From Fluviicola sp. (GTDB taxonomy: Bacteria; Bacteroidota; Bacteroidia; Flavobacteriales_D; Crocinitomicaceae), in assembly GCA_002734065.2 (NCBI GenBank), contig NVXU02000058.1:57877-121876 (forward strand): DNA of 64,000 nt, given 5' to 3'. The position numbers were made by a program, and so were the translations under genes. This document shows, one piece after another, positions 4,482 through 32,633 of this stretch; position 1 is the first letter of the stretch; the number at the start of each line of letters is the position of its first letter. The notes under the pieces were generated by a model. It saw only the letters and a list, made by a program, of their open reading frames with translations, did not search any database and was not told the origin of the DNA.

Positions 4482-6266
4482 TTATTTAACGCCGTGCATT
4501 AATTTCTTAATTAGTGGAGTCATTAGAACAGAGAATACTCCTAAACCAACTGCTACAAATGTTAATATCCAAAAGAAATAGCTAATTCCATCTTCTTTAG
4601 CTATTGCTTCTGATGATTCTCCGAAAATACCTGCTGTTTTCATCCCAATGGCTACGGCCAAATACCAAATTCCGAACATAAAAGCAATCATCTTACCTGG
4701 TACTAACTTACTTACATATGAAAGTCCCACTGGTGAAATACATAGCTCTCCCAAGGTATGAAAAAGATAAACCATTACTAACCAAAACATGCTAACGGAA
4801 GCGGTTTGAGCTCCAGGAGCAATTCCACCGGCACCGAAAGCGACAAAAGCCATTCCTATCCCTAATAATACCATTCCAATTCCATACTTCATATTTGCCG
4901 AGGGGTTGTACTTACTTTCCCACCATTTAGAGAATAATGGAGCAAAGGCAATTATAAACAGAGAATTTAAAACTCCGAACCACGATGCTGGAACTTCAAC
5001 TGCATCACTTTGAAACTCTACGACCAGCATCCAAATTGCTATTGCCCATATAATGACAAAACTAAAACCAAGAACTAAGTTCGCCATAGCATATTTTTTA
5101 AACGTCTGCTTAAACAGCAAACCTAGTACCCATGTTATTATAGCCAATGGTATAATTGTCATAAAGGTATTAATTACTTTATATATCATTGCTGAACTAC
5201 CTTCTAATGATCTATCCGTAAAATCACGAGCAAATGTTGTCAAAGAGGATGGAGCTTGTTCAAAAATTGCCCAAAAGAAAATTGTCAGGAATGCAAAAAA
5301 TGTAACGGCAATCATTTTGTCTCTTGTAATGCTTCCATAATTTGCTAATCGATAAACCAATAAGAAAATAAACATTCCTAAGGCTAATAAAATTGTAACT
5401 AAGGTCCCATCTAAACCAAACAGTTCAAAATTAAGAACATTATAACCGTAAATTTTGGAAGCAGGGTCATTTAGTATCCACACCAACCCCATCACAACCA
5501 TAAAGCCGATCAAAACTTTCTGCCACATTGAAAACGGCAAGCTATCTTTCTCTTCAGATTCATTACTCTTAGAGTCAGCGACTGGAGTATCAATAATTTC
5601 AGAAGACACAGGAATTCTATCCAATCCTTTCTCAGGCTTTAAACCAATATCACCAAAAATATTTTGAGATAACCAAAATTGAATCATTCCAAAAAGCATG
5701 AAGATACCTGCAAGACCAAAACCTATTGACCATCCAACTTTCTCTCCAAGATAACCACATAGTAAAATCCCTAAAAAAGCACCAGCGTTCACACCCATAT
5801 AAAAAATAGTGTATGCACCATCTTTCTTCTCTTGATGGTCTTTGTACATGTGAGAAATAATAGATGTCATATTTGGCTTAAAGAAACCACTGCCAAAAAC
5901 AAGTAGTGTCAATCCTAAATAGATAGACCATGTTGTTTCTAAAGCCATTGCTGCATGTCCTAAAGTCATCAATAAAGCACCAACAACGACAGCTTTTCGA
6001 TATCCCCAAACGTTATCGGCGAAGTAACCTCCAAGCATAGTGGATAAGTAAACTAACGCTGTATATGTTCCAAACAATACATAGGCCTGATCTTTCGGCC
6101 AACCCCATCCAGAGTCAGTTAAAGAGGCTGTTAAAAACATTACTAACAACGCTCTCATTCCGTAATAAGAGAATCTTTCCCACATTTCTGTGAAGAACAG
6201 TACGAACAATCCTGATGGATGCCCTAATACTTTTGAATTAAACATATCTGAATTCTGGTTTGACAT
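4482..6266 (-). CDS. POT/PTR family proton-dependent oligopeptide transporter
   Basis: A 594-residue major facilitator protein that imports di- and tripeptides with protons. The start MSNQNSDMFNSKVLGHPSGLF leads into the POT signature FFTEMWERFSYYGMRALL (helix 1, including the ExxER-type motif). FYMGVNAGAFLG and the GELCISPVGLSYVSKLVP stretch in helix 10 are also diagnostic. About 14 hydrophobic segments are visible, with a charged cytoplasmic loop at residues 205-240. It follows a second POT gene by 31 bases and is probably transcribed with it. The exact peptide preference is not predictable. Confidence 0.93.
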   Translation of the reverse strand: MSNQNSDMFNSKVLGHPSGLFVLFFTEMWERFSYYGMRALLVMFLTASLTDSGWGWPKDQAYVLFGTYTALVYLSTMLGGYFADNVWGYRKAVVVGALLMTLGHAAMALETTWSIYLGLTLLVFGSGFFKPNMTSIISHMYKDHQEKKDGAYTIFYMGVNAGAFLGILLCGYLGEKVGWSIGFGLAGIFMLFGMIQFWLSQNIFGDIGLKPEKGLDRIPVSSEIIDTPVADSKSNESEEKDSLPFSMWQKVLIGFMVVMGLVWILNDPASKIYGYNVLNFELFGLDGTLVTILLALGMFIFLLVYRLANYGSITRDKMIAVTFFAFLTIFFWAIFEQAPSSLTTFARDFTDRSLEGSSAMIYKVINTFMTIIPLAIITWVLGLLFKQTFKKYAMANLVLGFSFVIIWAIAIWMLVVEFQSDAVEVPASWFGVLNSLFIIAFAPLFSKWWESKYNPSANMKYGIGMVLLGIGMAFVAFGAGGIAPGAQTASVSMFWLVMVYLFHTLGELCISPVGLSYVSKLVPGKMIAFMFGIWYLAVAIGMKTAGIFGESSEAIAKEDGISYFFWILTFVAVGLGVFSVLMTPLIKKLMHGVK

Positions 6267-27816: not shown

Positions 27817-29364
27817 ATGAGAAAAACAATTTTATTTGCCTGCGCAATGGCAGTCAGCAACCTCTACATCGCCCAAAATTGGGGGGGGGGAGTAACATCT
27901 AACCAACCGTTAACTTCGGTTTTAAAACCTTATGAATCGAGAGGTTATATCCTCTGGAGCAAAGTTCCAAGTGCCAAATATGTCGTCAACATGTACACCA
28001 AAGATTCCGCAGGTAATCTAAGCTGTGTTGCAGTTAAAAGTACAGACAAAAATTATGTCAAGCTCGACAAATCAGTTTACAATGGTCAGAATGGCTATTA
28101 CTCAATATCTGCTTTCAATAACGGAAATGGTTCCTTAATAACTACGGGACCAGTAGTCTTATATGCACCTGAGGGAACAGAAGCAGCTCCTTTAATATGT
28201 GAAAAAAAATGCAATGGCTCAACTTATGCATGGAAGCTAGGAATTTACGAAAGCGCACCTGGTAATACACAAATGAGATTGAATTCTACTTTAGATTATT
28301 ATGATAATGTTGCAGACATAGCTGTACCTTTTTATCAAGCTATAGGAGATGCTCAATACAATGCTTTAGATTTAATAAATCACCCTTGGACTGAAGGGAC
28401 TGCAGATGGCATTTCTGGAACAGGAATACTTTATAATTACAAGCACATCCTACTGACCCCCAACACCCCAGGAGGACCTTTTAGAGATTCTCAAAACAAT
28501 GTGATAAATTCAGGTTGGCTCGTTGAAAAAAAGATGGATCAATTTGCATACATGGCAACAAGTGTTGCCGTTGGAAACCCAAGTACTTCAACTAATTGCG
28601 ATCCCAATTTAGTTGTCCAGTCAGGCGGCACATGGATGTCGTACTATAATACCAATGTTGACCAGTCGTCTTGGTTGCAAGTTCCAGCCTCTGTAGAGCC
28701 TTTTGCAGCTGATATACCCACACAGTTGGAATGTGACGTCATAGGAGATGTGGGAGGAGGAGATGAAATATTTGAAGAAATCGCTGTATCTCCTTGCCTT
28801 TCAGGAAGCTCTTCTATTTGTGATTATCTTACATGTTTGGGGATTCCAGACGAAACTTCTGGGTGCAGTACTGCCGGGACTGGGGATCCTTATGGAGGAG
28901 TAATTGTGGGATATGAAATAAAATACCTAACGGCTAATAAAAAATCGATAATTGGTTATACTGGAGAAGAAACACCAAAAAAAGTAGGCCAATTAAAAGA
29001 TGGACTTTATGAGATAATCTTTTTCTCAGCAGGTAAGGCATTCCCAATTATCTTTGAACAAAATTCAAATCTCATTATAAAAGAAGATAGAGAACTTGTT
29101 CAACTTACTTTAACACCAACAGTTGTGGAAAATAATTTATTGAAATTTAAAATCAATTCAGAAAAAAACATGAATGTGAACATAAAAGTAAGGAGTCTTG
29201 ATGGACAAACTTTTCATGATGAAAACACAACATTATCCTGCTCTATAGACAAAGATAGAGAAGTTGTAATTAATGCTTCTAATTTGCCTCAAAATCAATT
29301 GAGAATTACTTTGACTTTCGATGACGGTTCTATTTTGCAAGAGACTGCATTGAAAATGAATTAA
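27817..29364 (+). CDS. Secreted protein of unknown function with a poly-G tract, probable T9SS cargo
   Basis: A 515-residue exported protein. The signal peptide is about residues 1-19 (ending LYIAQ). Straight after it the reading frame contains ten consecutive G bases. Residues 25-120 look like a fibronectin-like beta domain (RGYILWSKVPSAKYVVNMY). The middle is rich in Cys and Gly, including CLSGSSSICDYLTCLGIPDE. The last 85 residues (VENNLLKFKINSEKNMNVNIKVRSLDGQTF) have the strand pattern of a diverged T9SS type A sorting domain without the YPNP start. First gene of the repeat-bounded cassette. Function unknown. Confidence 0.8.
   Translation: MRKTILFACAMAVSNLYIAQNWGGGVTSNQPLTSVLKPYESRGYILWSKVPSAKYVVNMYTKDSAGNLSCVAVKSTDKNYVKLDKSVYNGQNGYYSISAFNNGNGSLITTGPVVLYAPEGTEAAPLICEKKCNGSTYAWKLGIYESAPGNTQMRLNSTLDYYDNVADIAVPFYQAIGDAQYNALDLINHPWTEGTADGISGTGILYNYKHILLTPNTPGGPFRDSQNNVINSGWLVEKKMDQFAYMATSVAVGNPSTSTNCDPNLVVQSGGTWMSYYNTNVDQSSWLQVPASVEPFAADIPTQLECDVIGDVGGGDEIFEEIAVSPCLSGSSSICDYLTCLGIPDETSGCSTAGTGDPYGGVIVGYEIKYLTANKKSIIGYTGEETPKKVGQLKDGLYEIIFFSAGKAFPIIFEQNSNLIIKEDRELVQLTLTPTVVENNLLKFKINSEKNMNVNIKVRSLDGQTFHDENTTLSCSIDKDREVVINASNLPQNQLRITLTFDDGSILQETALKMN
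27881..27890 (+). repeat. G10 homopolymer inside a coding sequence (possible phase-variation tract)
   Basis: Ten G bases encode the WGGG stretch at codons 22-25, just after the signal peptide. With eleven G the frame reads SNI and stops; with nine it reads E and stops. So one base gained or lost shuts the gene off at once. G runs of this length are rare in this AT-rich sequence. Confidence 0.85.
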
Positions 29365-29388: not shown

Positions 29389-31008
29389 ATGAAATTTCTT
29401 GTTTTACTATTTAGTTTTTTTCTTGCCAATATTTCACTATCTCAAAACCCACCCATTCTGTGGCAACAAAACATTGGTGGCTCTGGCAGTGATTGGTTAA
29501 GTAAATTAGATATACCTGGTAGCACTGATTATTTTTTAATTGGTAACTCTGACTCGAATATATCCGGAGATAAAACGGAAAACTCAAGAGGTTTCAGTGA
29601 TATATGGATTGTTAAAATGGACATAAATCATACCATCTTATGGGATAGAACCATTGGAGGGGACCAAAATGACTTCTTTCGTACCGCTTTTATTCAAAAT
29701 GATTCTTTGTACTTATTAGCAGCTTCAGCATCAAGTATTTCTGGTGAAAAAACAATCGCAGCAATTAATAACTCTGTAGACGCATGGCTGCTTTGCTTAG
29801 ACTTATCCGGAAACATATTATGGCAAGAAGTGTATGGTGGTGATAGTGGTGAAAATAATTTAGCGCAAATAATAGCCTTACCCAATGGTAATCTACTGTT
29901 TGGTATCAACTCATCTTCGGGTATCTCTGGAAACAAAACAGAAGTAAATATTGGATTGGCTGATTTTTGGATAGTAGAAATTTCCTCCGTAGATGGTAGT
30001 ATAATTAATCAAAAAACTATTGGCTCTACACAAAATGAAAATTTTAGACAAATACTGTACCGCCCTAACAATACGATTTTAGTAACAGGAATGGCCCAAC
30101 AAGGAGTTAGTGCTGACAAAACAGACAACGGTTTTGGCTATGCTGATGTATGGGTCGTTGAGTTAGACATGAATCTCAATGTATTAAGCGATAAATGTTT
30201 TGGAGGAACAGGATCTGAATCAAATTTTGGAGGAAATATATTTGAAATTAACGGTTTTTACTACCTCATGACATCTTCTAGTTCTCCCATTTCGGGCAAC
30301 AAAACAGCGCCTTATTTTGGAAGCTTCGATGCCTTTGATCGTCCTGACTATTGGCTTGTGAAAATGGACTCCAACCTTAACATTATTTGGGACAGGACTT
30401 ACGGTGGTAATGTTGATGATAATGGCGGTGGAGTTTATCAACTATCTAACAATCGCTTATTAATAACTGGGAACTCTGAGACCAATATCAATGGCAATAA
30501 GACATCGCCCAAATATGGAGGAGTAGACACTTGGTTTTTAATTATTGACACGGCAGGTGTAATCATTGCACAAGAAACTTATGGAGGGTCATTAAATGAC
30601 AACATCGGTGCATTGCCGACACTGACCAATGGTGTTTTTTACCTTTCAGGAGCATCCGACAGCCCCATATCAGGTGTAAAGTCAGTTCCCACCAACGGTG
30701 GCTTTGATGCTTGGCTCATGGAGATTGATGCTTCAGGTTTTTTAAACACAGAAAAGATAGAAGGTGTCAATACCACTATTTCTGTTTATCCAAACCCAAG
30801 TAGTGGAGAAGTTAATTTTAAATTTGCAGACCTAGAAGAAGATGTTGAAGTTACTTTCTATTCTGTAGATGGCAAAACACTTTTCTCTGATAAAATTCAG
30901 TCTAATTCTGTGCTAAAAAGCTACGATTTAAAAGTTGGCAATCAAATGATTCTTTACTCCGTAGAGGGTGAACGAATTAATTATTCAGGTAAAATTTTAA
31001 TACGTTAA
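29389..31008 (+). CDS. T9SS type A sorting-domain protein with seven propeller-like repeats (paralogue 1)
   Basis: A 539-residue exported protein. The signal peptide (residues 1-18, ending ISLSQ) is followed by seven repeats of about 60 residues, each with a variant of SNISGDKT, a DIWIVKMD strand and ILWDRTIGG. Seven such units suggest a seven-bladed beta-propeller. The final 80 residues start ISVYPNPSSGEVNFKF and end GKILIR, a standard T9SS type A sorting domain that directs the protein to the cell surface or outside. The next gene, only two bases on, is a close paralogue sharing long near-identical DNA blocks. No catalytic motif was seen. Confidence 0.9.
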   Translation: MKFLVLLFSFFLANISLSQNPPILWQQNIGGSGSDWLSKLDIPGSTDYFLIGNSDSNISGDKTENSRGFSDIWIVKMDINHTILWDRTIGGDQNDFFRTAFIQNDSLYLLAASASSISGEKTIAAINNSVDAWLLCLDLSGNILWQEVYGGDSGENNLAQIIALPNGNLLFGINSSSGISGNKTEVNIGLADFWIVEISSVDGSIINQKTIGSTQNENFRQILYRPNNTILVTGMAQQGVSADKTDNGFGYADVWVVELDMNLNVLSDKCFGGTGSESNFGGNIFEINGFYYLMTSSSSPISGNKTAPYFGSFDAFDRPDYWLVKMDSNLNIIWDRTYGGNVDDNGGGVYQLSNNRLLITGNSETNINGNKTSPKYGGVDTWFLIIDTAGVIIAQETYGGSLNDNIGALPTLTNGVFYLSGASDSPISGVKSVPTNGGFDAWLMEIDASGFLNTEKIEGVNTTISVYPNPSSGEVNFKFADLEEDVEVTFYSVDGKTLFSDKIQSNSVLKSYDLKVGNQMILYSVEGERINYSGKILIR

Positions 31009-31010
31009 AT

Positions 31011-32633
31011 ATGAAAGCACTTATTTTCACATACGCCCTAATTGTTTCCTTTTTTTCACTATCTCAAAACCCTCCCATATTGTGGCAACAAAATATAGGA
31101 GGATCTGGTGATGATTTACTTGTGAAAATTAACATCCCTGGTAGCACTGATTATTTTTTAATTGGTAACTCTGACTCGAATATATCCGGAGATAAAACGG
31201 AAAACTCAAGAGGTTTCAATGATATATGGATTGTTAAAATGGACATAAATCATACCATCTTATGGGATAAAACTATTGGAGGAGATAATTCCGATGTATA
31301 TAGAGCTTCAGTTGTTGCAAATAATGAGTTATTTATAGTTTCAAGCTCTAATTCTACCATCTCAGGAGAAAAAACAATTGCCCCATTTAACAGTTCAAAT
31401 GATATTTGGCTTTTATGTCTTGATTTGAACGGCAATATTCAATGGCAAAGTTTATATGGTGGGGATGGGAATGAAGGTGGTTTATCTAGTATAATTGAGT
31501 TACCTAATTCTAACTTATTAATTGGTACACAGTCTTCGTCCGGTATTACTGGTAACAAAACAGAAGCCAATATCGGCCTATCTGATTTCTGGCTTATTGA
31601 GGTTAATACTATCGATGGGACAATAATTAATCAAAATACGATTGGTAGTTCTCAAACAGATAACATTAGACAACTAATGCTAACGCCAAATAATACTATT
31701 TTAATTGTAGGAGAAGCAAACCAAGGTGTTAGTGGGGACAAAACTGATAACGGATATGGATTAACAGATGTTTGGCTCGTAGAAACTGACTTGAATTTAT
31801 CAGTCATAAATAATATTTGTATAGGTGGAACAGCACTCGATTTTTATAATTGGGGAAATGTTGCTTACATCGATGGCTATTATTACCTTATGACATCTTC
31901 TAGTTCTCCCATTTCGGGCAACAAAACGGCGCCTTATTTTGGCAGTTTTGATGCCTTTGAGCGTCCAGACTATTGGCTAATAAAAATGGACACTAATTTC
32001 AATATAATCTGGGACAGAACCTATGGTGGTAATGTAGATGATAATGGTGGTAATGTATATCGATTATCCAATAATCGTTTACTAATCACAGGTACGTCGG
32101 AGACAAATATCAATGGTAATAAAACTTCACCTAAATATGGCAATCGAGATTTTTGGGTTCTTATTATAGATACGTCGGGAGTTATTATTGCGCAAGAAAC
32201 ATACGGAGGGTCATTAGATGATTTGTTATCTGTATCCTCTTCTACCATCACAAACGGCGTTTTTTACTTGTCGGGGGGGTCAGAAAGCCCTGTTTCAGGT
32301 GTTAAGACAGTACCAACTAACGGAGGTTACGATGCGTGGATATTAGAGATTGATGCTTCAGGTTTTTTAAACACAGAAAAGATAGAAGGTGTTAATACCA
32401 CTATTTCTGTTTATCCAAATCCAAGTAGTGGAGAAGTTAATTTTAAATTTGCAGACCTAGAAGAAGATGTTGAAGTTACTTTCTATTCTGTAGATGGCAA
32501 AATTCTTTTCTCTGATAAAATTCAGTCTAATTCTGTGCTGAAAAGCTACGATTTAAAAGTTGGCAATCAAATGATTCTTTACTCCGTAGAGGGTGAACGA
32601 ATTAATTATTCAGGTAAAATTTTAATACGATAA
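31011..32633 (+). CDS. T9SS type A sorting-domain protein with seven propeller-like repeats (paralogue 2)
   Basis: A 540-residue tandem duplicate of the preceding gene. Same plan: signal peptide ending SFFSLSQ, seven repeats with ISG-KT motifs, and the C-terminal sorting domain. The sorting domains differ by only about one residue (KTLF against KILF). Blocks near the 5' end and over the last 280 bases are almost identical in DNA, while the middle has drifted to perhaps 60-70 percent by eye. This suggests recent gene conversion, or selection on the ends only. A G7 run lies near base 32273. Function unknown; adhesion or surface binding is likely. Confidence 0.9.
   Translation: MKALIFTYALIVSFFSLSQNPPILWQQNIGGSGDDLLVKINIPGSTDYFLIGNSDSNISGDKTENSRGFNDIWIVKMDINHTILWDKTIGGDNSDVYRASVVANNELFIVSSSNSTISGEKTIAPFNSSNDIWLLCLDLNGNIQWQSLYGGDGNEGGLSSIIELPNSNLLIGTQSSSGITGNKTEANIGLSDFWLIEVNTIDGTIINQNTIGSSQTDNIRQLMLTPNNTILIVGEANQGVSGDKTDNGYGLTDVWLVETDLNLSVINNICIGGTALDFYNWGNVAYIDGYYYLMTSSSSPISGNKTAPYFGSFDAFERPDYWLIKMDTNFNIIWDRTYGGNVDDNGGNVYRLSNNRLLITGTSETNINGNKTSPKYGNRDFWVLIIDTSGVIIAQETYGGSLDDLLSVSSSTITNGVFYLSGGSESPVSGVKTVPTNGGYDAWILEIDASGFLNTEKIEGVNTTISVYPNPSSGEVNFKFADLEEDVEVTFYSVDGKILFSDKIQSNSVLKSYDLKVGNQMILYSVEGERINYSGKILIR

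Follow-up and report, generated by a model that had tools for sequence, protein, structure and literature searches.

The window, a stretch of 64,000 nt of DNA, contains a run of ten G residues just behind the signal peptide of an exported-protein gene. We consider it likely that this tract is a contingency locus, in which slipped-strand mispairing at a homopolymer would act as a phase-variable switch. The original prediction of such a switch is supported by long G/C tracts found at the same site in homologues from two other genomes, where they lie out of frame ahead of intact domain frames.

The G10 tract and the gene that carries it

The ten G residues were read directly from the sequence and are flanked by T at 27880 and A at 27891 (Table 1). 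The tract begins at nucleotide 65 of the coding sequence, in codon 22 of the 515-residue gene, and the N-terminus of the protein reads MRKTILFACAMAVSNLYIAQ-NWGGGV..., with a clear signal peptide whose cleavage point was inferred by eye. The sequence and the open reading frame agree with the placement of the tract first proposed, in codons 22-25 past the signal peptide. It had also been claimed that one base more or less leads to a stop within four codons, and the frame check bears this out: a change of one base puts the remainder of the gene out of frame, and in the two other frames a TAA codon follows the tract at a distance of 2 or 9 nt. The further claim that a G10 is improbable by chance is consistent with the composition of the window, where 0.18 matches to G8 are expected and the G10 is the only G/C run of at least 8 nt, and with a genome-wide excess of long runs.

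Table 1. Features of the tract gene and its neighbors, in positions of the window.
Feature	Position	Strand	Basis or remark
G10 homopolymer, proposed slippage switch	27881..27890	+	codons 22-25; same-site G9 in L261 (G355) and C17 in L262 (G210)
Exported-protein CDS, 515 aa, in frame (ON) in this assembly	27817..29364	+	ORF; family members by profile
Signal peptide MRKTILFACAMAVSNLYIAQ	27817..27876	+	sequence; aligned with homologues
TAA codons in the two other frames (would end translation in OFF states)	27893-27895, 27900-27902	+	2 and 9 nt past the tract
C-terminal region remotely like T9SS type A sorting domains	29077..29349	+	hhalign 92% probability, E 6e-7
orfB, cassette partner, repeat protein with weak T9SS type A tail	29389..31008	+	also follows the tract gene directly in several further genomes
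orfC, tandem duplicate of orfB (75% identity)	31011..32633	+	likely same operon

The window protein has no match in Pfam or NCBIfam, and profile searches show that its family occurs in the Crocinitomicaceae and neighboring families. The last 90 residues of the protein resemble T9SS tails in a remote profile match, and the protein gave no match above the cut-offs of TIGR04183 or PF18962 for T9SS type A membership; on the basis of the remote hhalign match we describe the protein as T9SS cargo-like, without formal membership. Through its C-terminal part, the profile of the family also matches the tails of many other proteins. Single-sequence structure prediction of the protein gave a pLDDT of 35, and a search of solved structures returned a weak Fn3-like match (E 0.11). 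Single-protein scans of genome and viral contigs with the window protein found no match, nor did a comparison with phage records.

From its gene order, the tract gene appears to head a conserved cassette with orfB, as an orfB homologue (32-48% identity) lies directly after the family gene in G355, G210, G112, G178 and G061. In the window, the tract gene, orfB and orfC probably form one operon, because the gaps between them are only 2-24 bp. The orfC gene also has a weak T9SS tail and holds a G7 run. Inspection of the listed window ORFs nearby revealed no evident recombinase of the kind involved in inversion-type phase variation. Elsewhere in the family, G121 holds multiple copies (L202, L211, L214 and L215) that are cut at contig ends, each near a helix-turn-helix regulator gene, and a copy in G061 (L208) is likewise neighbored by such a gene; recombination-based variation is possible. 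Members in G040 (L209/L276) and G069 (L240/L264) contain internal stops and are perhaps decayed copies.

Tracts at the same site in homologues

Family loci were collected by a profile search, and the sequence upstream of the domain was then read in each member (including L239 and L237). The family does not carry the tract throughout, as the majority of its members have a short variable linker without one. Where homologues do bear a tract it is out of frame, so that the called ORFs begin downstream of it. The nearest homologue, G355, comes from another genus and is 36% identical to the window protein; it has a signal peptide, the N-W pair and a G9 at the identical nucleotide 65 of the coding sequence. 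Its signal-peptide frame stops after 35 residues, and a different frame keeps the domain open over 489 codons. In G210 a C17 begins at nucleotide 62 of the coding sequence, the signal-peptide frame stops after 56 residues, and the domain is again open in another frame, for 525 codons. G112, a sister of G210 with 92% identity in the domain, carries only a C5, in frame; the window gene combines the signal peptide and the N-W pair with its G10, also in frame.

This comparison, which is between species and not strains, therefore includes both ON alleles (the window and G112) and OFF alleles (G355 and G210), the latter with open domains. Judged by their reading frames, the G355 and G210 genes appear to be undecayed and in an OFF state. 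A reversible switch predicts out-of-frame alleles with undecayed domains, and so the pattern in these two genomes fits a switch; both are draft assemblies, in which frames could in principle be mis-called. Among relatives, the same-site G9 and C17 and the in-frame C5 of G112 speak for the switch, and the lack of a tract in most homologues speaks against it.

The tracts of G210 and G355 are, as sampled, specific to the site behind the signal peptide, since a search of 334 kb from G210 and 282 kb from G355 showed no other G/C run of at least 7 nt. Run statistics put the chance of a tract of at least 9 nt in one such linker at 1e-6 to 3e-6 in these two genomes, and the chance that at least two additional members carry one at 1e-7 to 2e-6. 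The domain tree requires at least two changes of tract label.

Long G/C runs in the genome and the genus

The genome of the window (G000) comprises 3.49 Mb in 62 contigs, and its long runs were counted by pattern searches together with a 330-kb sample. It is Crocinitomicaceae-like: the named alaS matches closest to it, at 73%, belong to Flavobacteriales and Crocinitomicaceae MAGs. The number of G/C runs drops geometrically with a ratio of 0.197 up to a length of 7, and beyond this length observed runs exceed expectation. There are 39 runs of at least 7 nt (48 expected), 20 of at least 8 (9.4 expected), 11 of at least 9 (1.9 expected, P 4e-6) and 4 of at least 10 (0.37 expected, P 6e-4). An excess tail was also looked for at long lengths among the A/T runs of G000, and none was seen. 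Tracts of at least 9 nt occur at 3.15 per Mb in G000, against a mean of 0.73 in the 33 other genomes of the genus (34 genomes including G000). The GC-rich contigs L127-L129 (contigs C8, C9 and C11 of G001) and L157 (contig C4 of G030) were excluded from the tract counts; they have 66-69% GC within AT-rich genomes and are probably contaminant contigs.

Six of the 11 tracts of at least 9 nt in G000 are genic, and all six of these genes encode exported proteins, where a signal peptide or lipoprotein status was assigned with a simple rule and visual inspection; exported proteins account for 35% of the window's coding length. A general link between tract genes and export across the genus was rejected, as the rule assigned export to 14 of the 39 tracts that lie in genes. 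The length of a tract is little proof by itself, because relatives in the genus hold in-frame G9-G10 tracts within housekeeping genes (ftsZ-, hemL-, menD- and mnmG-like). We also rejected the other G000 tracts as long-conserved loci: their orthologues encode the same glycines and prolines by mixed codons, and several of these tracts are thus private and young. A lack of mismatch repair was rejected, as both MutS and MutL are present in G000.

Another tract gene of G000 is a second candidate switch. This gene (L010:3625-6224, contig C15) encodes an exported repeat protein with a T9SS type A tail, and its frame is broken exactly at a run of nine C residues, where the signal-peptide frame stops and a 723-codon frame with the T9SS tail starts. 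Its orthologues in G031 and G014 (~80% identity) have intact single frames of 872-880 codons without such a tract. T9SS sorting domains are carried by both tract genes of L016 in G000, and likewise by the downstream part of L010.

Several further tracts were observed in the course of this survey. Near position 3001 of L161 (contig C191 of G016), the frame of an exported protein that resembles SpoIID/LytB, a family named by eye, breaks at a G10. Tandem lipoprotein paralogues in G000 (L009:4493-4978 and 5095-5583, contig C3) have a G10 in one copy and a G7 at approximately the same place in the other. Intergenic G10 tracts lie ~217 and 85 bp upstream of kinase-like and PhoH-like genes (L011:5030 and L017:5005, contigs C22 and C62 of G000) and adjoin similar GGAGCTTTGGAG-type sequence; variation in a promoter region is possible at these two sites.

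A proposed slippage switch, its alternatives and known systems

The flexible linker behind the signal peptide may tolerate Gly or Pro runs, and the tract would then be a hot spot of slippage that arises and mutates neutrally and brings no advantage through switching. The linker does vary in sequence and length across the family, G9-G10 tracts occur in housekeeping genes of relatives, and several G000 tracts are private, with orthologues that encode the same residues by mixed codons. We nonetheless find this account unlikely. The sampled DNA of G210 and G355 is essentially without long G/C runs, yet each genome carries such a run here; the out-of-frame tracts are followed by domain frames that show no decay across 489-525 codons; and poly-G and poly-C were gained separately at the same point.

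The undecayed state of the out-of-frame G355 and G210 genes would also be expected if transcriptional slippage or ribosomal frameshifting at the tract yielded a fixed in-frame share of product whatever the DNA length, with the DNA itself stable. Bypass of homopolymer frameshifts at the RNA level is possible, as for poly-A in Buchnera (PMC2831843). However, recoding is unnecessary for the in-frame window gene, and the length and even the base of the tract vary between relatives, so that change at the DNA level between species is clear; we regard recoding as very improbable. Sequencing or assembly error could in principle account for the tract lengths seen or for the shifted frames, given that the assemblies are drafts and that long runs of G or C pose difficulties in sequencing, a known problem of Illumina data (PMC9187656). 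We give this hardly any weight, since long tracts are implausible as errors in samples without other runs of at least 7 nt, and the window gene is in frame in a region that is intact over long ORFs.

If the tract is a slipped-strand switch, it would gain or lose bases by mispairing during replication. In frame, as in this assembly, a protein with a signal peptide would be made, probably exported by the T9SS and either displayed at the surface or secreted. Out of frame, translation would end 1-4 codons past the tract and leave only a peptide of about 25-28 residues, and polarity might also affect orfB and orfC downstream. We infer that switching would be reversible within one population, that the product would be located at the cell surface and that polarity would operate; switching may be under selection, for example by phages or grazers. 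The MutS and MutL of G000 count against a switch, as they should slow slippage. More tentatively, and with rather less than even confidence, we suggest that environmental Crocinitomicaceae switch a T9SS-type surface cassette by poly-G/poly-C slippage at a repeatedly re-evolved site behind the signal peptide, and that the window species has extended this to a genome-wide slippage phasome of about six exported-protein genes.

Most known cases of phase variation by repeat slippage come from host-adapted bacteria outside this phylum, and the well-described route to phase variation in the Bacteroidota is DNA inversion. A position-conserved and separately regained G/C tract, together with the OFF alleles of related genomes, suggests that environmental bacteria also make use of slippage switches, perhaps against phages or grazers. 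The tract also provides a defined locus where existing metagenome reads could probe switching.

The closest parallels lie outside the phylum. Campylobacter jejuni has intragenic poly-G/C phase-variable genes, such as cj1139 and cj1426 (PMC8437040), and resembles the present case in its coding poly-G tracts of at least 7 nt, its AT-rich genome, the early stop that follows a one-base shift and, probably, its surface-related products. It has 12-29 tracts per genome (PMC8437040), compared with the 39 runs of at least 7 nt in G000. In C. jejuni, switching has been measured (about 2e-2 for cj1426) and affects mostly glycan-modifying enzymes, whereas the gene described here encodes an exported protein and its switching is a prediction; the mismatch repair genes present here are a further difference. 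In Bifidobacterium breve UCC2003, a G-tract likewise separates the secretion signal from the rest of a protein encoded at the head of an operon, there a surface protein, and this sortase-pilus gene is out of frame in the reference assembly and gives a product in one frame only (PMC9187656). That system is an actinobacterial sortase pilus with a G11/G12 mixture found by deep sequencing, while ours is a Bacteroidota protein with a T9SS-like tail, seen in an assembly.

Within the Bacteroidota, Bacteroides fragilis also shows heritable on/off switching of surface components, but does so through invertible promoters and DNA inversion by recombinases (PMC11868660), in contrast to the homopolymer slippage proposed here; inversion is the mode of phase variation that a 2025 review sets out for Bacteroides (PMC11868660). 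Across 99 prokaryote genomes surveyed, poly-G/C tracts were generally under-represented (PMC2831843). We found no report of a homopolymer-slippage switch in the Bacteroidota in the open-access literature searched, where absence is no proof. The slippage mechanism itself is already well known; what is probably new is an example from the Bacteroidota, with tracts at the same site in three genomes.
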